A DNA stretch of 64,000 bases from Pleurocapsa sp. PCC 7327 (GTDB lineage: Bacteria > Cyanobacteriota > Cyanobacteriia > Cyanobacteriales > Microcystaceae): positions 3,922,024 to 3,986,023 of the forward strand of contig NC_019689.1 in assembly GCF_000317025.1 (NCBI RefSeq), read 5' to 3'. Below the pieces are notes generated by a model. It saw only the letters and a list, made by a program, of their open reading frames with translations. It made no database searches and was not told the origin of the DNA. Each line of letters starts with the position of its first letter. Positions within the stretch are counted from its first letter, which is position 1. Of the stretch, positions 46,931 to 59,684 are shown piece by piece. The translations under genes and the position numbers were made by a program.

Positions 46931-46962
46931 GACATAATTTTAGGCTATAAGCCGATTATGTC
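46931..46962 (+). promoter_or_regulatory. Palindrome over the start of the IS607-type tnpA
   Basis: GACATAAT (46931-46938) and ATTATGTC (46955-46962) form an 8-bp inverted repeat spaced by 16 bases, and the right arm includes the ATG at 46958. It may be the recognition site of the MerR-like domain of TnpA, or part of the left element end. Confidence 0.4.
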
Positions 46963-47240
46963 CAATTTATTAACGGTTACTGAAGCTGCTCAACTACTTG
47001 GCGTGTCTACCAAGACAATAAGGCGTTGGGAGAATGAAGAGAAAATCAAAGCAATTAGAACCGAAGGAGGACATAGACGCTTTGAAGTCTTTTCATTACT
47101 AGGTAATAAGCACGATGCTTCTTTAACAGTGGCTTATGCGCTTAGTTTCTAGCTCTGACCAGAAAGAAGACCTAAAAAGACAAGTGTTGGTGTTAGAAGC
47201 TTACTGTGCCGAGCATGGTTGGTCTTATGAAGTTAATGAA
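46958..47240 (+). pseudogene. IS607-type serine recombinase TnpA, frameshifted and truncated
   Basis: The MerR-like DNA-binding part LLTVTEAAQLLGVSTKTIRR is intact. At about 47130-47140 the frame shifts between AYA and the resolvase motif SSDQKEDLKRQVLVLEAYCA, so the catalytic Ser segment is out of frame. At about 47237 the gene ends abruptly after HGWSYEV; the residues that follow in IS607 TnpA are missing and a different element begins. The associated IS607 tnpB is not found. Confidence 0.75.
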
Positions 47241-47255
47241 CTACACCCGACCCGT

Positions 47256-48512
47256 CTACGACCTCAGTCGGGGTTTCTGTCGTCTCATCGTAGATGCTTG
47301 CTTGAACCCTCCACAAAATGTAGGGGTTGAAGTAGAGGCTTCTACTCCACGATTATAGAGGCTGGTTCCCAACCCCTTTGCATAATTAAGCATTACTTGA
47401 GCCGCAGCAACATCTCTATCGCAGATATAACCGCAGTTAGAGCATTGATGCACTCGTTCGCTCAATTCTTTTTTCTTTTTATGACCGCAAACCGGACAAG
47501 TTTGACTGGGTGCAACTTGATGAGTTGGAACTTCGACAAAAACCCCTTGACCCTCATCAAGTTTGTACTTAATTAGCGACAAGATATTTCCGATTCCAAC
47601 ATCTAACAAAGAGCGATTTAAACCAGTTTTTTGAGCTTTTCTTTTACTGCCTTTCTTAGCTCTAACGGTCATTCCTTTTATGTTGAGCTTTTCGGTCGCC
47701 ACCAGGCTATTACGGCTGACTATCTGTGCGGCGACTTGATGTTGCCAATCTTCTCTCTGTCTGGCTACTTTTTGTTGAAGTTTACTAACTTGTTTTCTAG
47801 CTTTCCTCCATCTTTTCGATGCCTTGATTTTTTTCTTGAAATTTGGCGAACGTTTCTTTCTTAACTTCTTAGAAACTTTTCTAACTTTCTGTTGGATTGA
47901 ACCTAGAAATCTAGGATTATCTATTATCGTGCCATCGCTACAAGCAACCCCATGATAAGTTCCAAAATCTAAACCAACTGAATTAATATCTGTTTCTCTA
48001 ACTGGCTGACAATCGACCGTGATAGAAGCGTACCATTTTTCTTGCTTCCAGATAATTGTGCAAGTTGACGGGAGCCCCCAAGTCCTAGCTTTGCCTCGAA
48101 GGGGGATGGCTCCTAAATTAGTTAAAACTAGATAACCGTTTTCTCCATTTGTTGAAGCTTTCCAACCAGATTTACACGGATATGTCCAGCCTCGGTAATC
48201 ACGAGATGACTTAAATTTTGGTCTACCCCCTAATTTCTGAAAAAAGCGTTTATAGGCAAAATCGACTCTTTTTACAGTCGCTTGTCAAGCATGGCTACCT
48301 AGCTCTTTATATTCCTGCCAACACTCTTTAAAAGCTGGCAGAACATTTTGCTGGTCGAAATAATTAATTGACTTTCCAAACCGCTCGTATTCTACCTTTC
48401 TTTGATAGAGGCAAGCATTGTACAGTTCCTTATGGAGCTTCCTCCAATAGTGGAGTTTTTTCTCCTGTTTTTTATTTGGATAGAGTCTAAATGTTACTCG
48501 CCTGATTGCCAT
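47256..48512 (-). pseudogene. tnpB: TnpB (RNA-guided nuclease of IS605), one internal TGA
   Basis: Read from ATG 48512, the frame continues for about 418 codons to 47256 with one in-frame TGA at 48285-48287 (GSHA, stop, QATVKRV). RuvC catalytic motifs are intact on the downstream side: GLDFGTYHG (Asp), VATEKLNIKG (Glu) and SNCGYICDRDVAAAQ (zinc ribbon and Asp). The zinc ribbon CPVCG plus CSNCG is complete. TnpB cuts DNA guided by an omega RNA made from its own 3' end. Without suppression only the 75-residue N-terminal piece would be made. Confidence 0.8.
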
Positions 48513-48560
48513 GTATGTATCGACCAACTATACTAAGAATCTATTTGAGCGAATGTAAGA

Positions 48561-48975
48561 TGTCAAAATAAAGCCTAGAAAAGGTTCTCACAGCGTTTTT
48601 AGTGTACGGTTACACTTTGTCTTGGTCACTCATTACCGTAGGAAAGTAATAACCCCTCCGATGTTGAAGAGGTTACGAGAAATGTTTTGGCAGGTCTGTA
48701 GAAAGATGGATTGCGAATTGATAGAATTCTCTGGTGAATCAGACCACGTACACGCCCTAGTAGATTTCCACCCTAAGAACTCTATTTCTGCTGTCGCTGG
48801 CTCTCTCAAAAGTTCTTCTGCTAGAACTATGAAAAAAGATTTTCCAGAAGAAGTCTCTAAATTTTATGATGGCGTTTCTTTTTGGTCTAATTCTTATTAT
48901 GTCGCCTCAACTGGTGGCGCACCTATTGATAAGCTTAAAGAGTACATTAAGTCTCAGGAAAAGCCAGTAGATTAA
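48561..48975 (+). pseudogene. tnpA: IS200/IS605 Y1 transposase TnpA, frameshifted near its start
   Basis: The frame HSVFSVRLHFVLVTHYRRKV through DHVHALVDFHP (HUH-type metal motif HVH) to the catalytic Tyr in LKEYIKSQEK is complete. The natural ATG at 48561 (ATG TCA AAA) is one frame away and hits TAA at once. A frame from TTG 48622 makes a 117-residue protein without the first strand. The active-site residues are therefore encoded but the start is lost. Confidence 0.75.
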
Positions 48976-49055: not shown

Positions 49056-49792
49056 GTTCATGGGGTAAACCAAGATTGTTCTCACGCCTTTAAGGTTTGG
49101 GTTTCGCAGCAAGTCGTCAACGATGGGAACGACGTAACTCAAGCTTTTGCCCGAACCCGTTCCTGTGGTTAGTACATAAGGTTGATTCTGTCGGGCGCAG
49201 CGAAAGGCACTTTCTTGATGATGATAGAAATTAAAATTAGGAAAATAAGATCGGCAATCGGGATGCAGGATTCCTTCAGAAACGAGAGTATCGATATCGG
49301 CACTCCGTTTGTAGGCGGGATTGATTTGGATGAGGGGATCTTTCCACAGTTGCCCTTGGTCGAGTTCGCTGGCGACAAACTCTCTGACTTTGCGATCGCG
49401 AATTTTGAGAAAACTTTCGAGGTAGCGGCGGTAGTCGCTAATTACTTCGTCTCGGAGGTTGAATATATCTAGCGTATCGCTTTTGGCTTCGGCTTTTTTC
49501 TCTTGAGGGTGGATGCTTGCTTGGTGTTTTTCTCTTCCCAAACGGCGATCGATCCAATCGACAGTTGTTGGGCAAGGGACTCGCTGACGGTATCGGGGTC
49601 GATAATGTCTCCGAACTTGTCAAAATCCCAATCCTGGGGAATGGCAGAAAATAAAGCCTCAAGCTGTTCGTTACTGAGAGATTCTACTTCTTGACAGTCG
49701 AGTTTGGCTATTCCCATTCCCATGAGAGTGCTAGTCGCCGCGATTGCTTTTTTGTCTTGTTTGAGTAAATCTTGCAACCTAAAAACTGCCAT
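49056..49792 (-). pseudogene. DEAD/DEAH helicase of a defence-type locus, frameshifted and 3' truncated
   Basis: ATG 49792 lies directly after the stop of the UvrD-like gene and starts MAVFRLQDLLKQDKKAIAAT. At about 49470-49540 the reading shifts frame, into FNLRDEVISDYRRYLESFLK and VREFVASELDQGQLWKDPLI. Walker A VLTTGTGSGKSLSYVVPIVD and motif Ia ILVYPMN follow; at PMN the coding ends at the edge of the IS605-type element. Only about 245 residues of a protein that normally exceeds 1000 residues (DEAD helicase with DUF1998-like C-part) are left. The two parts may instead be two overlapping genes, but a frameshift is more likely. Confidence 0.65.
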
Positions 49793-50983
49793 TTATTTCT
49801 GCCTATCTCCCTTTGTTCGAGCCAATTGCCAATAATTTTCGTCGAGATGTTCTAAAAACTGACAACTCGTTTTCGTCCCAGAAACCATCAAAGCGCGCAT
49901 GGCGCGAGAACAACCGACGTAGAAGAGACGGCGCTGGGCATTGAGCGCGATCGCGATTTCTTGGGGCGGCAGATTCTCCTCTATTTGTGGAAACGTACTT
50001 TCCGATAGTCCGACGACGACAAAAGGAAATTCCAACCCTTTTGCCGAATGTAGCGTCATTGTCTTAATATAAGGCGCTCTCAGGTCGATTTCCTTGCTCC
50101 CGACAAACTTGGCTTTGAGTCCTAGCTGGGTTAGTCTTTGGGCATATTGTTTTGCTCCTTGAATACTGGGACATAGAATCGCGCTGCCGTGTAGGGGCAA
50201 GCGATATCTTTTGGCACAGGTAATAAAAAAGTCGCGAATTTTCAAGATTTCTTCTCGTTCGTCGTCTCCTTGCCAAACTAAAGGCAAATCGCCGTGGTGG
50301 GGCGAGGGATATTGGCGAACGCAGTCTTCATCCCCCGCTTCTGTACCTGCTAGGATTTGAGCGCAGGCAGCGCTAATCTGTTGGGTATTGCGATAGTTGC
50401 GTTTGAGTAAGAGAGTGCGTCCGGCAACTTTCAAGTCGGCGTGGATTTGCTTCCAGCTAAACCCTTTTTGATAAAGCGATTGAGAAGCGTCAGCCGTCAA
50501 ATATACGCTGTCAACCGAGGGGATTAGAGATAAAAGAAATCGCAAGGCAACAGGAGAGAGATCTTGTGCCTCATCGATAATGACAGCTTGGTAAGGCGGT
50601 GTAAAATCAGAACAAGAGACGACAGCCAAAGCTTTTCGGCGCAGTTGTTCCCAAGTCAGCGCGCCGTTTTTTTCCATCAAATCAGTCCAGGTTTGATAGG
50701 CTGCCCAAATGGCTTCGCGGAGGTTGGCTTTGAGTGGAATGCCCCGTCCGTTGCGAGAGGTGTTTTGATAATCTTCTAAACTGTTAAGCCCTCTCGATTC
50801 GATAATTTCTAAAATTTCTTGTAGGAGATAGGTAAGTCCTAATTTTTCTAAACTTTGGCAGCGAACTTGCCGATCGAAAACGTTTTTAGCGGGAATTTCT
50901 ACGGTTTTGAGCGCGATCGCCAAACAATCCAAACATTGCTCTTCGCTGGCAAAAACCGTCTTTCCATAGGTTTTGACATAGTA
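49793..50983 (-). pseudogene. UvrD-like helicase of the RelE-UvrD fusion, 3' half
   Basis: This continues the 51902-52800 frame after the IS5-type insertion. It contains UvrD/Rep motif II IIDEAQDLSP, motif III LTADASQSLYQKGF, motif IV LLLKRNYRNTQQIS, motif V TLHSAKGLEFPFVVV and motif VI LFYVGCSRAMRAL. All helicase motifs are undamaged and the stop at 49793 is immediately followed by the next gene. If the insertion and one copy of TAGTA are removed, the two halves join in frame as VYKYYVKTYGK. Confidence 0.85.
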
Positions 50984-51901
50984 GACCTCCTGCAAAAGTG
51001 TTACGCGATCGCATAATTGGAGTGGGAAAGAAGTTCATAATTATAAATGCCAGCAATCAAATTAAATCTCAACCCAAACCGTCTTCTTCGGTTGCGATAT
51101 CGACTTGAAAGAATTCTGAATATTTTTAGACTGCGATGAATATTTTCAATTACAATCCTTTCACTTGCTAACTTACGATTAAACTTCTTTTGCTCTAGAC
51201 TTAACTGTTGATTGCGCTTTTTTTGTTGGGAATTCTACTGTTGGGATGAAGTTTCTGAATTCCTTGATATCCTTTATCAGCCAAACATTCTATCTGTTGT
51301 TCGATTCCTATTTTACTATTTTTCCAAATCTTAAAATCATGACTTTTTCCCTTCTCATGAGCAATACAAAGAATTTGTCTCGTTTTTGCGTCAGCTAAAA
51401 CTTGCGATTTTATCGTGTGACACTTTTGCCGACCACTGTAGTAAGCTTTTTGTTTTTTTCGGTCTTTCTATTTCATGTTCTGCTACATCTACTACGACAA
51501 TTTCAATTTCTGTATTTTGGGGTTGAACAGCTTTTTTCCCAGGCAGATTGAAAAGTCCCGATTTCATTAAAATATCTTCTACTTTTCTGGTGATTCGTAA
51601 AGCCGTTGTCTCGTTTATTCCCCAGCTAGTTCCGATATGAAAATAGGTGCGATACTCTCGCCAATATTCAAGAGTCATTAAGATTTGGTCTTCTGCGCTT
51701 AATTTATTTGGTCGTCCTGTTTTTTTTGTAAGACTTTTTCGGCTTCTAGAACTTTTACCATCTCTTTAAACGTCTCTGGATATACTCCACAAAGCCGTTT
51801 AAACTCTGTCGGTTTTAAATTTTTTACTTGAGAGTAAGTCATAACTCGAATTGTAATTTGGTTTTATTTTACCTAACTTACTCTGACTTTTGCTGGAGGT
51901 C
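50984..51901. mobile_element. IS5-type insertion sequence, 918 bp
   Basis: Terminal inverted repeats AGACCTCCTGCAAAAGT (50983-50999) and ACTTTTGCTGGAGGTCT (51886-51902) match in 16 of 17 positions. TAGTA flanks both ends (50979-50983 and 51902-51906), consistent with a 5-bp target duplication; the end of the repeat and start of the duplication share a base. It splits the UvrD-like helicase gene. The transposase inside is degenerate. Confidence 0.85.
51001..51842 (-). pseudogene. IS5-family DDE transposase, several frameshifts
   Basis: Segments in three frames can be joined: MTYSQVKNLKPTEFKRLCGV, then LTLEYWREYRTYFHIGTSWG, then the first catalytic Asp in VVVDVAEHEIERP, then AYYSGRQKCHTIKSQVLADA, LADKGYQGIQ (second Asp) and ERIVIENIHRSLKIF (Glu). 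Breaks lie at an A8 run (about 51720-51727), at a second A-rich run near 51442, and near 51190. The first break could be a programmed -1 shift, known in relatives; the others are lesions. Confidence 0.75.
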
Positions 51902-52800
51902 TAGTATTTATAAACGAGCGAATCAACTGTCGCCACTTCTACGCCCATTGCTTCGGGAGAGTTTCCCAACAGTTGTTCGAGGAGTTGTTGGGAATAAGTC
52001 ACCAGGGCATTGGTGTAGGTGGTAAAGAGAATGGGTTTTATTCCCCATTCCAACAAGGTTTTCACTCGATAGAGGGCGAGGGTAGATTTTCCCGTGCCGG
52101 GACCGCCTTTGACGAGTGTGGAACCGTTACTGCCAAAAGAGAGCAATTTCTCTTGTTCGGGGTCGAGTTTGAGCAGGAAAGCGCTGATATCGCCACTGAA
52201 AAAGCGATCGAGGTCTTCGGGTTGTGCCAGGAGATATTCGGGTTGATTTTGAATCTCTTCAATGGGGCGGGGAAAGAGATTGTCGAGGATGCGACTGAGA
52301 ATTTTATCGGGAATAGCTAAAGCAATTAAATCGTCTTCAGTTTTGACTCGGCATAAATCGTCCCAATGCTGTTGGGGTATTTGCCATTGTTGAAGTTGCT
52401 CTTGGGTCAAGATAAAGGGAAGAGGGCGACTGGCGATTGGCGAGCTAGTTGGGATAGAGTTGGAAGCAGTAGAATCTTCCCAGTTTTCGATCGCACGAGG
52501 AGAGGCAACGGGAAGAGCGAAGGCAGGAACTTTGGTTTCATAGGTGCGATCGTCCCGCTTGCGAATGCTTAACAGCTTAACCCAACCATCTCCAAAGCTG
52601 TAAAAAAGCCGATAGTCGCCTAAACGAACGCGATAGACGTTTTGTTTGTATCCTTTGAGCTTTTTCGCGTCCCCTTGGGCAGAAATTGGGTCTTTTTCGA
52701 GAATTTTGATTTTTCCTGCCACTTTTTTGCTAATGGCGTGGGGCAGGTTGAGTAGTTCGTTGAGAAAGGTATCAGTAACCAATACAGCCCTGGCTGTCAT
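51902..52800 (-). pseudogene. RelE-like domain fused to UvrD-like helicase, 5' half
   Basis: From ATG 52800 the first 90 residues are a RelE/ParE-type toxin fold (FLNELLNLPHAISKKVAGKI, VYRVRLGDYRLFYSFGDGWV, KLLSIRKRDD). A linker and an N-terminal helicase part with Walker A LVKGGPGTGKSTLALYRVKT follow. The frame stops at VDSLVYKY at the edge of the IS5-type element; the helicase continues in 49793-50983. A RelE-like domain on the front of a superfamily 1 helicase is unusual and found mainly in defence-type loci. The gene would be about 1000 bases long on each side and is intact but for the insertion. Confidence 0.8.
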
Positions 52801-52952
52801 GTCGCTTCGCTCCAATTTACAATTTGCAATTCACAACCGTCCTGTACGGAGCGAAGGGAGTAGGAGTGGGGAATTAAAGATTGTTCTGGTCATGATAGGG
52901 AAAACGCAAACGTTAATGTAGTTTTAGTATTCCCAAGAGATTTGAAGAACTA

Positions 52953-53228
52953 TCAGATGGCTTGCAAATTTAAAACAAAACCGAGCAAGACATTTTCCCC
53001 CGATAAGGTAGCAGGATTGTCTAAAACTTCTTTATCTTGTCCGATACGATATTCAATAATTATTTCTGAGTTTTGGCGGCTGGTTTCTCCTCCGGTTGGC
53101 GGCATAATAATTAATTCTCCTGTCGCGGCGCGCTCGAATCTGAGGTCGCGATTTGCCGAACAAAGTTGATAAAATTGTTCGTCGCTAAGTCGAGCCGTAG
53201 GTGGAAAATTTAGAGTTATCGCTGTCAT
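52953..53228 (-). pseudogene. Uma2/DUF820 family protein with internal deletion
   Basis: The N-terminus (TLNFPPTARLSDEQFYQLCS, then FERAATGELIIMPPTGGETS) and the C-terminus (VLDNPATLSGENVLLGFVLN) are typical of DUF820/Uma2 endonuclease-like proteins. They are joined at about residue 60, whereas the family has some 190 residues. The middle with the Asp/Glu/Lys nuclease residues is missing. Frame is kept, so a 91-residue protein is possible but without the catalytic core. Confidence 0.7.
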
Positions 53229-53279
53229 ATTTTTTTCTACCCTCGATTAGCAAGTCGAATATTCAAATATTATTGAATC

Positions 53280-53570
53280 TCAATGGTCTGCTATTTCTAA
53301 AGACGCGATCGCAGTTCCTTGATCGTGATGAATCTTCTGATTTTTGACATAATCAACCGCTTGTTGGAGCTGTTTGCTCCCCAAAGAAAATCCCCCATAT
53401 CCTTCTTGCCAGTATAACTTGTCAGCCGATAAATTCTGATTCCAATAATGAGAACTACTACCTTTAATTTTTTTAACGAATTCTGCGATCGCTAAATGGG
53501 GAGGAATTGAAGCCTCAAAGCTTAATTCTCTTAAAAGAGAATCGCTCGACCTTAACACCATTCCCAACAA
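53280..53570 (-). pseudogene. IS200-like/RAYT Y1 transposase fragment
   Basis: Residues from SIPPHLAIAEFVKKIKGSSS through LYWQEGYGGFSLGSKQLQQA to AVDYVKNQKIHH match the C-terminal two thirds of a REP-associated tyrosine transposase. The catalytic Tyr lies in VDYVKNQK. The N-terminal HUH metal motif is gone and is replaced by unrelated sequence (about residues 1-20). Such transposases are linked to REP hairpins; a hairpin repeat lies just upstream at 53596. Confidence 0.65.
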
Positions 53571-53580
53571 CCAATCGATT

Positions 53581-53650
53581 TCAATCGATTTCCGCTATCA
53601 GACAGAGAATTCATTCTCTGGCTGTCTAATCGATTTTAATCAATTTTCGC
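53581..53650. repeat. Hairpin repeat inserted at the 3' end of the methylase gene
   Basis: CAGACAGAGAATTCATTCTC lies between two TCGATTT-AATCGA-like blocks. It belongs to the same family as 12841-12883 and 54547-54597. The methylase frame ends inside it (IKID, stop), so the repeat probably cut off the gene's 3' part. Confidence 0.6.
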
Positions 53651-54495
53651 GATCGGAGTAACTGACGGTAGTAATCGGCGGCACTTAATTGGTTAGTCGC
53701 GATCGCATCTCGCAGCAATTGATTGCTGGGGTGCTGGAGAAATCCCGTTCCTAAGAAAATTAATGCCTCCTTGACTCCATCGCGCAGGCGATCGCGTACC
53801 CGTTCCCCGTGCTGAATGGCTTCTTGATGATAAAATTCCAACAGGCACTTGTCGGCATCATCTACTCCTTCCGGTAGGCGAGAACGGTGGAATAGGCGAT
53901 AAAACAAGCCAAACTCGGCAAAATTCTCTCCTTCAAGAATCTGTTCCAGATCGAACTCGATGTAAGTCAAGCGCGTCATCAAGGAAGAATCTCGCAGCAA
54001 CCGCTAGCGCAAACCATTAGTCACAATGCCCCAGAGGTGTTCGGTGCGGTTGAGATATTCCTGCATCAGCGCGTGGGCAGATAGTCGCGGATTGCCCGAT
54101 GGAGGACGTTCTTCTAACTTCAACCGAGAACCGATAATATGGATGGGAGGCTTATCTTCTCCTGATGATGCTCGGTGAGAAATAGCGTAAGTTTGCCCGT
54201 CTACGACCTCAGCTTTTGCCTGGTAAACTAGATGGTAGCCCAACAGTTCCAACAAAGGCACTGCCCAATATTCCCTTGTCAGGCTAGTAGCCGCATCCCC
54301 GTCTTCGAGTCGCGATAATCGTCTCTTAAAAGCTGCCCAATATGCTTTGGCATCGCCCCAGGCACAAGCAATCTCGTCTTCTAACTTATCGGTTTTCTTT
54401 AAACCAAAGTCTGTTGGGGATTGTCCTTTAAAATCGCCAGAAGACAAATCCGCAGTCAAATCGGCAGCGATTAAATTTCCTTCGATATAAAGCAT
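53626..54495 (-). pseudogene. N6-adenine DNA methylase (Eco57I/defence type), one nonsense codon and 3' truncation
   Basis: From ATG 54495 the N-terminal region of a large methylase/restriction protein reads REYWAVPLLELLGYHLVYQA and ALMQEYLNRTEHLWGIVTNG. At 54003-54005 the codon after NGLR is TAG; the same frame then continues RLLRDSSLMTRLTYIEFDLE and FAEFGLFYRLFHRSRLPEG to 53626. The later adenine-methylase motifs (NPPY) have been lost by truncation. The N-terminus lacks a catalytic site, so the class is inferred from the conserved TNG-RLLRDNS-like segment and from the helicase next to it. Confidence 0.65.
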
Positions 54496-54546
54496 AACGA
54501 TCCGCAATTTAAGTAATTAATCCGAATATCTTGGAACCCAAATGGA

Positions 54547-54597
54547 AGTCCGTTTAAACGGACTTAAGCCATGAGACAGAGAATTTATTCTCTGGCT
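54547..54597. repeat. Compound-hairpin dispersed repeat, best-preserved copy
   Basis: AAGTCCGTTTAAACGGACTT is a perfect 20-bp palindrome at 54547-54566, followed by AAGCC and CAGAGAATTTATTCTCTG (54577-54594), a second palindrome with GCC/GGC arms. It sits between the methylase and SNF2 helicase genes, 14 bases after the helicase stop. See 12841, 22308 and 53596 for relatives. Confidence 0.75.
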
Positions 54598-54610
54598 CAC
54601 AATTGAGATT

Positions 54611-56779
54611 TTATAAAGGTTGAAACAGGTAAACGCCGAGAATGTCCATCGGTAATTGAGGCTTGACGCGAACTTGTCCTTCTTGCGTCATTGCTCTTAC
54701 TCGTCGATGGGATTGTAAGAGAGATTGCGATCGCGTTTGGGCAATTTGTTCTAATTGAGAATCTAAATCTGGCAGGTGCGACAGCAGCCGTTCGATCGCT
54801 ATTCGCTTGCGCTGTAAGGGCAAATCGTCTACAGGTTCTACTCGTTGCAGAAGTGTTAAAACTTCATCGTCGGATAACCATTGAGGCTGAGAAGGCGAAC
54901 CCGTAAAACCCACAACTAAACATTCCTCTGCTAGTAAGGTCGAATGCTTGTTGCTTTCTAATAAGTACCGCAGGCGCAGTAAGAGAATCGAGGTTGGTAC
55001 GGCTACGGCATCGGTGACTGTCACTCCGCATCGCGCCGCCGTCGGAGATTCCCGGTTTTCTAAAGCGTCTTCGAGTAAATACCGCGCCAATCCTTCTACT
55101 AGCGGATGGTTGCGTCCTACATACTCAACTCCTTCTGGTGCGGGATGGGAAAAAGTAATGAGACGCGGTTGATTTCCCAATGTAGGAATTAAGCAATGAG
55201 GAATATTGGGCAAATACCAGCCGTTTTTCTGTTTGATTAGGTAAGCTTTCAAGCGATCGCAAGCTTGCTTGACAAACTGCTCTACATCTGCATCATTACC
55301 TAAAATCCGGTCGGATTCGAGTAATTCCCGTTCGACTTCTTCGGGTTTAATCGATCGCTGGGCAAAGCGAGTGCGGTTTTGCTTCTCTCGCTCCACTGCC
55401 CTGTCCCAGTTTTGATGTACGGTAGCGACAGGGGATTGAGTATCTTGCAGCAAATCGAACAGACTTAGCTGACAATTAGCGGGGACTTTCTCAAATAAAG
55501 ACTTGAAGACGGCTTCCTGTACCGTGGCACTATCCATCGGCACGGGAACAGTAATTCCTAACGTGCGGTAAATGGTGACGGCTTTGCGGATCAAGACTTC
55601 CAATACTGCCCCATCGACGGGGTTATCTTGTCCGTAGAGCAAGATGCACTTGACAGTGGGCAAGGGTTGACCGTAGCGATCGATCCGTCCTTCTCGTTGT
55701 TCTAGACGATTTGGATTCCACGGTAAATCGTAGTGAATGGCTGCGGTAAAATGCTCTTGTAGGTTCACCCCTTCGCTCAAGCAATCCGTCGCTACCATTA
55801 CCCGTTGGGGAGAGGCTTTTAATTCATCCAAGCGGATTTCTCGTTCGTCTTTCGAAAGTCCTCCAGTAATGGCAATGACTCGGACGTTGCTGCCTTTCTT
55901 CTTCTCTAGTTCATCTCTAAGCGATTGGGCGACGTAGTTAGCAGTGGCAATGTAGCGACACCAGACAATCGGGTTTAATCCTTCTTTGAGTAAGTCTTTA
56001 ACAAGAGCAATAAGCTGTTGTAATTTAGCATCTTTGCTTCCTTTTAGTTGCTCGGCAGCTTTGACAAATTCTCTTAACTTCCGTTTTTGGGATTCTCCAT
56101 AACTCTGTTGTCCTTGTTCGACAACGACAGTGGGGGACACGTCGATCGCCATTTCTTGCTCGGTAGGATTGTAAACGTAAGTCGCTGCTAATTCCTCGTC
56201 CAACTCCCCAGCTAAAGAATCTGCACCTGCACCTTTGCCACTCAGACGAGATAAAGTTGCGATCGCAGCGGCGGGAGATGACATCACGCACCGGATAATT
56301 GCCAGTGCCGACCAGTAGCGTCCTCGCCGTTGGGCCTAGCTGAGACTGGCATCGGCTGTGTTGACTAATCCTCGTGCCAAGTCATACACCTGCTCGAACA
56401 AGGCGCGATACTCAGCAGAGAGTTGGTAAGGGGATTCCGATGATTCTCGTTGCGGAAAAGGTGTGTCGTTGCCCAACCAATTTTTGACATCAGCCCGACG
56501 ACGTTGAACGAAGTGACGCGCCAATTCGATACGTTGAGGTTCCGTTAAAGCATTCAAATCCAACTCTTCAAATTCGGGTTTGAGTAACCCTAAAATAGAC
56601 GTGAAAGAAGCCTCGATGTCGCTATGGGGCGTAGCAGTGAGTAACACCAAATGGCGATCGCCTTTTTGGGCAATTTCTTTAACTAACTGATAGCGCTGCT
56701 GTTGGGTGGCGCGATCTCCCGTCGAACTCGCTGTATGCACCTCATCGACAATTATACAGTTGCGGAGGACATATAGACT
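54611..56779 (-). pseudogene. SNF2-like DEAH helicase, 5' truncated with one nonsense codon
   Basis: Coding similarity begins at about 56779 with CIIVDEVHTASSTGDRATQ (DEAH box), and continues HLVLLTATPHSD and FVQRRRADVKNWLG. TAG at 56336 interrupts, and the frame resumes AQRRGRYWSALAIIRCVMSS, with helicase C-domain motifs VMVATDCLSEGVNLQ and LPWNPNRLEQREGRIDRYGQ. The original codon at 56336 was probably CAG. The N-terminal region with Walker A lies upstream and is missing, replaced by unrelated sequence (56780-56973, nothing recognised). It belongs to the SNF2-like helicases found in DISARM-like and restriction loci. Confidence 0.75.
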
Positions 56780-56973
56780 TCCCCGTTCAAATTCCGAATT
56801 ATTTGCTTATTTTCGCGGAATTTTTCCCGTAAAAACGATCTATATCCATCCGCACTTTTACCGAAACCCGAATTTTGGCGATCGCACCTTTGACACTTTC
56901 TACGGTAGGATTGCTGCGATAGATGCGATCGCTGTCATACTTAACCTCTTTTTGACAACTCACGCGCCTAATT

Positions 56974-58512: not shown

Positions 58513-59684
58513 GGGAGCATCCACTTTTGGAAGAAACACCCAATCAGACAGCAAGTAAACCATTAAGATAAGCACAACGAACAGAGAGGATGTGATTGAC
58601 ACTTTCAACATTCCACTGTGCGCCAGAAATTTTGATCCTTAAACCAATTTGTTTAATTGCAGATTCAACTGCCCCTGAACCGATAGAACATAATTGTTCA
58701 GCCTGATAATAGCTGTAATTGACAATGCGAGGGAGATGTTTTTCCAGATAAGCGATGAAATTTTTAGCTTGTTTACCTCGGCAATGATTAAATAGGGTCT
58801 TGGCCGCTTCTACCTGACCTTGCCACAACAGAGTTTCCGCAGCTTTGAGTCGCTTTAAAGAACCACCAACTTTATAAAGATTTTCCTTCAGGTGATACCA
58901 ATCCAAAATTTCACAGCGAGAAAACTGGTCTTGTCCAAATTCTCTCACCAGATTCCAGACACCATCATGTCCATCTCCCAAGCAAACAAGAGGGTCTAAC
59001 AACTGTTGGCTATTGACATAATCAATTAATGATTGGTTGTCATCAAAAAATGCACCATAGTAAATCCCTTGCAGACGAACGGTTTTATAGTCTCGCCAGT
59101 GGCAGCCTGCTTTCGGTTTACCCCTGAGTCGGACTTTTCCTCCATCTACGCTGACTTCTGAAACTGATTGTTTAGCAAGTGGTAGTTGAAAATCTTGTGA
59201 CAGCACTAGTTGTTGTTGTGTTGAATGACCAACTTTTACTCCTGTCAATGCCTCAATCTCGATTTCTGCTTTTTGGTATGATTCGTTAGCTGATAACCTC
59301 AAACAGCACTTTTGAAGTAATGGACTTAGGCGAGTTCTTGGCTTTAAACCTAGTCTAATAAGCTGTTTGGCTTTTAATTTCAGTTCCCCTACTAGGCTTT
59401 TTATTTTCCTAGTTTTACCTACTTTTGTTCCAGTTTTTGTTCGATAAAAAAAGGGCTATTTCTGGGCTGACTAGTTCTAATACTTGACTGCGAACTGTTT
59501 TTTCTATGCCTTCAAGGTCTGTCAGCTTACTTTTGTCTGCTTCTTCATACAGCAGTGTTGACAATTCTTGTAAGCAGGCTTTGATCCGTTCTTGTTTCTC
59601 TTGGTTCATTGTCAGCGATCGCACAGGATTATTTCCCTTTACATTTTCCCATAAATGGTAAATCTTCCAAAACTGGATGCTCCC
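58513..59684. mobile_element. ISKra4-type insertion sequence, 1172 bp
   Basis: Terminal inverted repeats GGGAGCATCCACTTTTGGAA (58513 on) and TTCCAAAACTGGATGCTCCC (ending 59684) differ at one position. The 8-bp target duplication TATTTTTT is perfect (58505-58512 and 59685-59692). Removal of the element with one copy of the repeat restores the gamma reading RQYFFVCLYRAF in frame. It carries one transposase on the minus strand. Confidence 0.9.
58544..59609 (-). pseudogene. ISKra4-family transposase, one frameshift
   Basis: ATG 59609 (MNQEKQERIKACLQELSTLL) runs to NKNWNKSR, stop at 59415. The reading continues in another frame with VGKTRKIKSLVGELKLKAKQ and KPRTRLSPLLQKCCLRLSAN into the long C-terminal part: EVSVDGGKVRLRGKPKAG, LVCLGDGHDGVWNLVREF, CEILDWYHLKENLYKVGG and GSGAVESAIKQIGLRI to 58544. 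The DDE residues in SVDGG, LGDGHDG and AVESA are intact. A single insertion near 59415-59425 inactivates it unless it is a shift site. Confidence 0.8.

Follow-up and report, generated by a model that had tools for sequence, protein, structure and literature searches.

What kind of system once occupied the run of broken genes at positions 56788-49056, on the minus strand, of a 64,000-nucleotide stretch of the Pleurocapsa sp. PCC 7327 genome (4,986,817 bases in one contig), and is it one that has yet to be described? Within this stretch, referred to throughout as the window, the locus retains pieces of an Snf2 helicase, an N6-methylase, a RelE-UvrD helicase and a large DEAD helicase, which the original prediction, made from the letters alone, had taken for the remains of a multi-gene restriction or defence locus reminiscent of DISARM. 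A lesion map, obtained by piecewise tblastn of the relatives' proteins against the window and by blastn against the corresponding locus of a genome of the same genus (G002), bears out this broken defence locus. We consider it very probable that the remains are those of an ARMADA Type I operon, inactivated recently, with the gene order armA-armB-cargo-RelE-UvrD-armC, whose intact relatives would act by the mechanism proposed further below. The suspected kinship with DISARM thereby holds, as ARMADA is a DISARM relative, and the expectation of a defence system not yet described falls away, because ARMADA has already been presented with anti-phage tests on an E. coli Type II system (Bell et al. 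2025 preprint, PMC12458937, accessible part of the text). What looks new is the RelE-UvrD variant of ARMADA I, which was not found in print in the literature searched, where coverage of subscription journals was poor.

The armA remnant (54611..56788, minus), from a BrxHII/RapA-like Snf2 helicase, has lost residues 1-222 and carries a single in-frame TAG at 56336-56338, as had been predicted; it reaches 56788 and thus slightly beyond the originally proposed span of 49056-56779, which otherwise does contain the locus. In tblastn the remnant aligns over 56788-54617, with one stop, to residues 223-941 of the ArmA of G020 at 69% identity, and it matches the PADLOC model PDLC02853, labelled 'DpdE' (E 1.2e-93), the DrmD model (E 6e-45) and Pfam Helicase_C. 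What is left of armB (53656..54507, minus) is the N-terminus of a PglX-like N6-methylase, the first 298 of its 1483 residues, which is interrupted by one in-frame stop near 54004 and is 87% and 74% identical to G002 and G039, respectively (tblastn); the catalytic part is gone, in agreement with the predicted stop and 3' loss. An IS200-like transposase scrap (53280..53570, minus; PF01797 Y1_Tnp, E 7e-9) lies at the armB deletion and is followed by a Uma2/DUF820 scrap (52953..53228, minus) whose N-terminal part matches PF05685 (E 8e-9); it belongs to the cargo that varies in the armB-armC interval. This scrap had been listed among the broken genes of the locus, and its presence stands; its rank as a system component is unsupported, as tblastn matches 32 of its residues (53051-52956) to an open reading frame (ORF) of only 81 residues even in G002.

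The RelE-UvrD gene is split by an insertion sequence (IS), as foreseen. Its first part (51901..52815, minus) holds the RelE domain and the helicase N-terminus (tblastn, residues 1-303 of 694, 95%), and its second part (49793..50995, minus) holds residues 294-694 (94%) with a UvrD_C match (E 6.5e-18), so that all residues are present on the two sides of the insertion. The IS itself (50975..51902, minus) has an HTH_Tnp_4 match and forms a gap in the G002 alignment. Finally, the armC remnant (49056..49792, minus) comprises the first 246 of 1799 residues in two frames, residues 1-77 at 49792-49562 and 78-246 at 49562-49056, at 94-97% identity to G002 (tblastn). It matches the Pfam DEAD and the DruE models. 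Residues 247-1799, with RecA2, the MZB/DUF1998 module and the C-terminal nuclease, are gone; the frameshift and 3' loss ascribed to a DEAD helicase are thus real, and the gene itself is of the YprA family, with an MZB and a nuclease-like end in intact relatives. At the armC truncation lies an IS200/IS605-type pair (47256..48975) with a TnpA-like gene on the plus strand and TnpB-like pieces on the minus strand (PF01797, E 4e-34; Cas12f1-like_TNB, E 2e-14; HTH_OrfB_IS605, E 1.9e-6).

Compared with G002, the window lacks approximately 5.2 kb from armB to the Uma2 scrap (blastn), and neither this deletion nor the IS insertion could be produced by base-calling errors; the window copy of the system is dead. 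The G002 locus, at the same site, is much less damaged, and the remnants share 92-96% DNA identity with it (blastn). The flanks are alike in both genomes, with threonine aldolase-like and ATP synthase genes on one side and rhodanese and cytochrome oxidase-like genes on the other; the rhodanese and ATP synthase assignments are backed by domain matches, and the names threonine aldolase-like and cytochrome oxidase-like are our presumption. As armA of G002 itself contains one in-frame TGA, that copy may be failing as well. The other two genomes of the genus that were searched have no close armA (a weak 37% match in G001, none in G003). Ratios of nonsynonymous to synonymous divergence (Ka/Ks) between the window remnants and G002 are 0.23 for armA, 0.17 for armB, 0.27 for RelE-UvrD and 0.17 for armC. 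They fall within the range of three intact flanking genes (0.16, 0.09 and 0.34), so the divergence accumulated mostly under constraint and the locus was inactivated recently. The armB remnant (53656-54507) has a Ks of 0.29 to G002, two to five times the 0.06-0.15 of the other eight genes examined, which would fit recombination or faster evolution of this part prior to the decay. At least 22 further copies of the IS at 50975-51902, at 99-100% identity, are present in the genome, which suggests a recent burst.

Relatives of the locus were sought with the armA and armC remnants in 58 genomes, the window's own included. Homologues that align with the armA remnant over at least 247 residues occur in G000, G002, G020, G039, G006, G045, G030, G009 and G050; the tally rises to 18 of the 58 genomes when weaker and shorter matches are included, and the armC remnant has matches in 12, counting its own genome and one weak match. 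The intact syntenic operons that the original prediction had proposed to look for were found as co-directional operons in other cyanobacteria: in the seven relatives with both genes on one contig (G002, G020, G009, G030, G045, G039 and G046), the homologues of the Snf2 helicase (~950 aa) and of the 1800-residue helicase lie 6-11 kb apart on the same strand, with a methylase of ~1270-1480 residues between them. Some copies are interrupted (armA in G002, G045 and G046; armC in G020 and G046), and the cleanest relative, G039, has four stop-free genes. An intact operon with armA, armB, cargo, RelE-UvrD and armC in this order is also present on pPg_03 of Pseudanabaena galeata (L054, 2453-19973). 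For G039 the domain content was determined. The G039 ArmA matches SNF2-rel_dom and Helicase_C in Pfam and the DpdE-labelled PDLC02853, DrmD and BrxHII models in PADLOC; its ArmB matches Eco57I and N6_Mtase as well as DrmMI, type IIG and, more weakly, PglX; its RelE-UvrD protein matches ParE-like and UvrD models; and its ArmC matches DEAD, Helicase_C and MZB together with DruE. The MZB module lies at residues 1573-1658 of the ~1800-residue ArmC, a region of the protein that is missing from the window; the earlier argument from a missing drmB gene does not hold, because the DUF1998/MZB module is contained in ArmC. Within the C-terminal 150 residues of ArmC, the MTES_1575 REase model matches in 9 of 10 cases, DUF559 in 7 of 10 and Vsr in 3 of 10 (E up to 1), and PDF and CDG stretches are conserved. 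The armB-armC interval of the relatives carries variable cargo, namely PIN, AbrB, Rpn and DUF6516 genes. The methylase of G002 (L033, 6932-11365) has an inserted DUF559 nuclease domain (E 1e-28), with no such match in the G039 methylase. With an ArmC profile, matches of E 1e-100 or better were obtained in 28 of 386 cyanobacterial genomes; the window genome was missed because only a stub is left there. From 72 plasmid records with an ArmC match, six were taken (H1, H14, H15, H31, H44 and H46), and from a further set of 51 records, eight (H51-H54, H56, H57, H74 and H78).

The type of the locus was read from a quick LG+G4 tree of 35 YprA-family helicases including 17 cyanobacterial ArmC proteins, from which L151, L154, L155, L157, L159, L163 and L165 (contig edges, near-duplicates or partial sequences), the broken or partial ArmC of G020, G046 and G023, and the short-fragment genomes were omitted. 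The 17 cyanobacterial proteins form one clade (SH-aLRT 100) inside a larger clade that contains all five references with the C-A-B gene order, Chlorohelix being nearest and Deinococcus, Nocardioides, Acidithiobacillus and Paraburkholderia further out (L056-L060). Four Type II ArmC proteins (E. coli, Aulosira, Actinomyces and Streptomyces) form a separate clade with a support of 100. The position of ArmC inside the Type I clade means that the window locus is best filed as ARMADA Type I. G214, which stands outside the 17, also has a methylase ahead of ArmC, so this order is not confined to the 17-member clade. The gene families agree with Type I as well, in that ArmA is BrxHII/RapA-like, ArmB is PglX-like and ArmC is YprA-like with a fused MZB and a Vsr-type nuclease. 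The accessible part of the Bell et al. preprint gives YprA, BrxHII, PglX as the usual Type I order and reports BrxHII-PglX before YprA, the A-B-C order, for many archaea and cyanobacteria (PMC12458937). Two differences from Type I stand out: the window copy is dead, and RelE-UvrD lies directly upstream of armC in 12 loci, the window included, whereas the same text, where accessible, assigns RelE-GajB to Type II only.

Other identities for the locus can be weighed against this assignment. A chance juxtaposition of unrelated single genes, for which we found no support, is refuted by the syntenic operons in many genomes, whose clustering is at odds with homologues that occur only as isolated genes, and we regard it as next to impossible. 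The locus might also be a class 1 DISARM remnant minus drmB and drmC, given that DrmD and DrmMI models match armA and armB, that class 1 DISARM consists of an Snf2 helicase, an N6-methylase and a YprA helicase in the order Snf2-methylase-helicase, seen in L180 and L181, and that real cyanobacterial DISARM operons hold a RelE-UvrD of the same branch in the same slot, before drmA, in eight loci. Both of these gene families occur in ARMADA as well, and the ArmA of G039 scores 372 against a cut-off of 610 for NCBIfam DISARM_DrmD. Against a DISARM remnant, ArmC is a YprA helicase with the MZB fused into one ~1800-residue protein whose best model is DruE rather than DrmA. In true DISARM loci (L180-L185), which are distinct, helicase and DUF1998 module are split into separate drmA and drmB genes; no syntenic relative with such a pair was seen at this site. 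As the MZB is fused in ArmC and none of 233 ORFs from the stretches of ten-odd relatives, G002 included, matched a DrmA or DrmB reference at E 1e-5, a DISARM remnant is rejected, and we think it highly unlikely.

The RelE-UvrD gene would by itself point to ARMADA Type II, which shares the four genes for an Snf2 helicase, a methylase, a YprA helicase and a RelE-UvrD helicase, and for which the accessible part of PMC12458937 states RelE-GajB, nearly always following, as the mark and A-B-C as the order. This type is ruled out by both trees, and its probability appears to us to be very small: ArmC groups with Type I and apart from the Type II clade, the window-type RelE-UvrD and the ArmD of Type II belong to different branches with 100/100 support (~25% identity between G039 and E. 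coli), and the gene stands before, not after, armC. Membership in Dpd, raised by the DpdE-labelled best PADLOC model of armA, was rejected since this helicase family is common to ARMADA; the ten window pieces scanned with PADLOC gave a single further dpd label, a weak DpdJ match (E 1e-4) of the armC piece. Druantia shares with ArmC its nearest PADLOC model, DruE, and differs in that Druantia III, as far as the accessible sources describe it, is made up of just DruE and DruH, with neither a methylase nor an Snf2 helicase, and in forming a separate tree clade.

With the locus thus best read as ARMADA Type I, the RelE-UvrD gene becomes its distinguishing component. In sequence searches the N-terminal piece from the window matches the RelE chains 1wmi (E 3.9e-5) and 3bpq (E 0.001), and the first part of the gene has Pfam matches to UvrD as well as ParE and YoeB, the latter two just below their curated cut-offs. 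The window protein and three relatives have in common Lys and Arg residues and one Tyr at the usual RelE positions, which are catalytic in RelE. The RelE domain is assigned from the sequence and Pfam matches. The best PADLOC matches of the G039 protein are GajB models, in keeping with the UvrD-like helicase common to both; Gabija GajB differs in that the N-terminal RelE-like domain is a feature of RelE-UvrD, whose named neighbours are other proteins (GajA was not searched for). At E 1e-60 or better, a RelE-UvrD profile found 10 of 386 cyanobacterial genomes in a draw across the phylum and 34 of 388 in a draw across the order, the two draws overlapping.

A tree of 45 RelE-UvrD proteins splits into two branches with 100/100 support. 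It drew on a contig scan with a RelE-UvrD alignment that includes two common helicase motifs and returned at least 79 loci, of which only L062-L065, in the window's branch, and L066-L068 and L070, in the other branch, were used (L067 by its place in the tree); places in G016, G006 and G493 (207-223 bits, each with one internal stop) were left out. Context labels rest on similarity to few reference proteins and on PADLOC models. By these labels, the other branch comprises Type II ArmD, genes beside a methyltransferase and a restriction endonuclease of the BPTD_3080 family, which we take to be type III, and genes beside GmrSD (L160 and L066; Pfam). In the window's branch the contexts are ARMADA I, DISARM of class 1, a further YprA system designated X, a PD-T4-6-like kinase and BREX (Deinococcus NW-56), and, more doubtfully, dpd and a DruE-like helicase (L065). 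The RelE-domain match is not significant in the dpd member (E 0.32) and is weak or not significant in most members of the Type II branch. In the tree, ARMADA I members intermingle with those of X. A single clade of the eight ARMADA I-type proteins, one of them a row of unseen context, was rejected (p 0.014), and a single clade of the two X rows was not (p 0.0675); an approximately unbiased test value of p 0.0006 on the 45-protein tree was set aside, as two rows of unknown context lay inside the group. The mixing and, as weak support, the rejected clade suggest movement between systems. Three loci show further settings of these genes: in L160 (8894-19900) a GmrSD gene and a RelE-UvrD belonging to the Type II branch come after a Type I ArmC and ahead of armA; in L066 GmrSD stands beside a RelE-UvrD of the same Type II branch; and in a BREX locus on a Deinococcus plasmid (L053, 13980-16001) RelE-UvrD lies between brxC and the methylase gene.

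In 40 loci, counted for holding RelE-UvrD, the position of the gene was measured as the gap between the end of its match and the beginning of the next co-directional partner match; G002, G030, G039 and G057 had been fetched via armA or armC and were also found by the RelE-UvrD search, and L187 (G507), a decayed locus with pieces of ArmC and RelE-UvrD, was not counted. RelE-UvrD lies directly upstream of a YprA-family helicase in 24 of the 40 loci (ArmC in 12, DrmA in 8 and the X helicase in 4), at a gap of 0 to 211 bp that stays under 60 bp in 17 of the 24; in the window the two ORFs abut (49793 and 49792). A kinase match is next in 5 further loci, at 15 to 612 bp. In the other 11 no such partner is next: four are decayed or lie at or near the end of a contig (L191, L143, L176 and L147), RelE-UvrD stands alone in L062, L178, L141 and L189, and there are L160 of the other branch, L053 with the BREX methylase next and L065 with the DruE-like helicase next. 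The earlier suggestion that RelE-UvrD marks a variant is thus supported by a tree branch of its own and a conserved slot before YprA helicases. Among the DISARM loci, L180-L185 are six cyanobacterial class 1 loci with RelE-UvrD between drmMI and drmA and with a gene of ~270-290 residues after drmB that is a candidate drmC; in L145 and L144 only the drmA side is visible. Of the 16 ArmC rows of cyanobacterial ARMADA I that can be decided, 7 have RelE-UvrD and 9 lack it, the 17th, G153, being cut by its contig, and the share of 7 leans slightly towards presence because L063 joined the ArmC tree via the RelE-UvrD scan. The presence and absence pattern amounts to 4 changes on the ArmC tree and, with the 7/9 split, indicates a gene that is easily gained or lost.

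How such a gene relates to its neighbours may be read in two ways. RelE-UvrD might be a dedicated partner family of YprA helicases, one mobile gene shared by ARMADA I, class 1 DISARM and X that adds an RNA-cleaving arm to systems otherwise taken to act on DNA alone, ARMADA II having gained a separate branch for the same purpose; we put this forward tentatively, as a serious possibility that falls somewhat short of an even chance. Conversely, it could be passive toxin-antitoxin-like cargo of the armB-armC interval with no role in ARMADA, which we consider rather unlikely, if far from negligible. The variable cargo of that interval, the Uma2 scrap included, the 9 of 16 ArmC rows that do without the gene, and its occurrence before a kinase, in BREX, beside dpd genes and alone would all suit such a passenger. 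Against it, in the 24 YprA loci RelE-UvrD is always the last gene before the helicase rather than scattered, across three kinds of system and mostly at the short gaps given above, and the analogous Type II ArmD is essential (PMC12458937, accessible part). Our own reading is that RelE-UvrD is a mobile partner of YprA helicases, presumably acting together with the helicase encoded beside it.

In order to rationalise the ARMADA I operon on the molecular level, we propose that, in intact relatives, ArmB, as an N6-adenine methylase, would mark host DNA as self, whereas ArmC would load on unmarked or structured phage DNA, unwind it and cut it with its C-terminal Vsr-type nuclease. ArmA would serve as a second DNA motor. 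RelE-UvrD would combine SF1 motor and RNase-like domain in one protein and work with the adjacent YprA helicase, and it may cleave RNA, which is the least supported step. In the Type II system, according to the accessible part of PMC12458937, loss of any of the four genes abolishes protection, as do changes to either Walker motif (A or B) in ArmA and ArmC, to the ArmD Walker A motif and to the ArmB NPPW motif; changes to ArmD Walker B and ArmB GxG have partial effects, and infected cells stay intact. DruE is described, in the accessible part of a 2026 preprint (PMC13192584), as loading on 3' single-stranded DNA and as having a helicase-nuclease role on replication intermediates, and BrxHII, in the accessible part of PMC12839542, as a Tudor domain, an Snf2 core, an inactive REase and a RapA-like end. 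Several points weigh against an ARMADA Type I operon working in this way. The Type I references were recognised by their gene order, with the reference of Bell et al. (WP_108720193.1) outside the tree, and the ArmC tree came with warnings on long branches and uneven letter make-up. A sequence-profile search of the PDB with the ArmC C-terminus found no nuclease. AlphaFold2 models of a Pseudanabaena RelE-UvrD (mean predicted local distance difference test score 54) and of the window RelE domain (48) are too poor to assign a fold, and the 9 ArmC rows without RelE-UvrD mean that the gene is not required in cyanobacterial ARMADA I. Furthermore, no activity of a Type I ARMADA was found reported in the accessible parts of the literature.

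For the window itself, the pile of pseudogenes records the recent loss of a known defence system. As far as the accessible literature shows, neither DISARM nor ARMADA I is defined as including RelE-UvrD, and if this protein is indeed a working YprA partner, there would be DISARM and ARMADA I forms with an RNase-fused motor that lists of drm genes or of the three arm genes miss. The slot rule of methylase, RelE-UvrD and YprA helicase can be used to find new members and the third system. Loci of X, in which RelE-UvrD precedes a YprA helicase, are L170 (2605-19799), L064 (3581-18141), L172 and L177, with Pseudanabaena ABRG5-3, Chloroploca, G495 and G634 as hosts. X carries an N6-methylase, and an Snf2 helicase was seen in L170 and L172. 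Its YprA helicase is ~26% identical to ArmC, sits on a long separate branch of the tree and, in L170, has an MZB and a weak MTES_1575 nuclease match; X is possibly a further ARMADA-like type and apparently undescribed. In five cyanobacterial genomes RelE-UvrD is followed by a PD-T4-6/mad6-like kinase (L142, 9535-13967; L146, 7555-11867; L179, L186 and L188), a candidate two-gene defence system; PADLOC was run on two of the five loci.

Two further disturbances lie beside the locus in the window. At 57290-58558 genes resembling ATP synthase alpha and gamma are truncated and joined by a deletion relative to G002, next to a UPF0236-like ORF (58544-59302; weak match, E 4e-4). At 46958-47330 an ORF with a MerR-like HTH is followed by a short ORF, presumably recombinase-like, and the two are perhaps the broken head of an IS607-type element.

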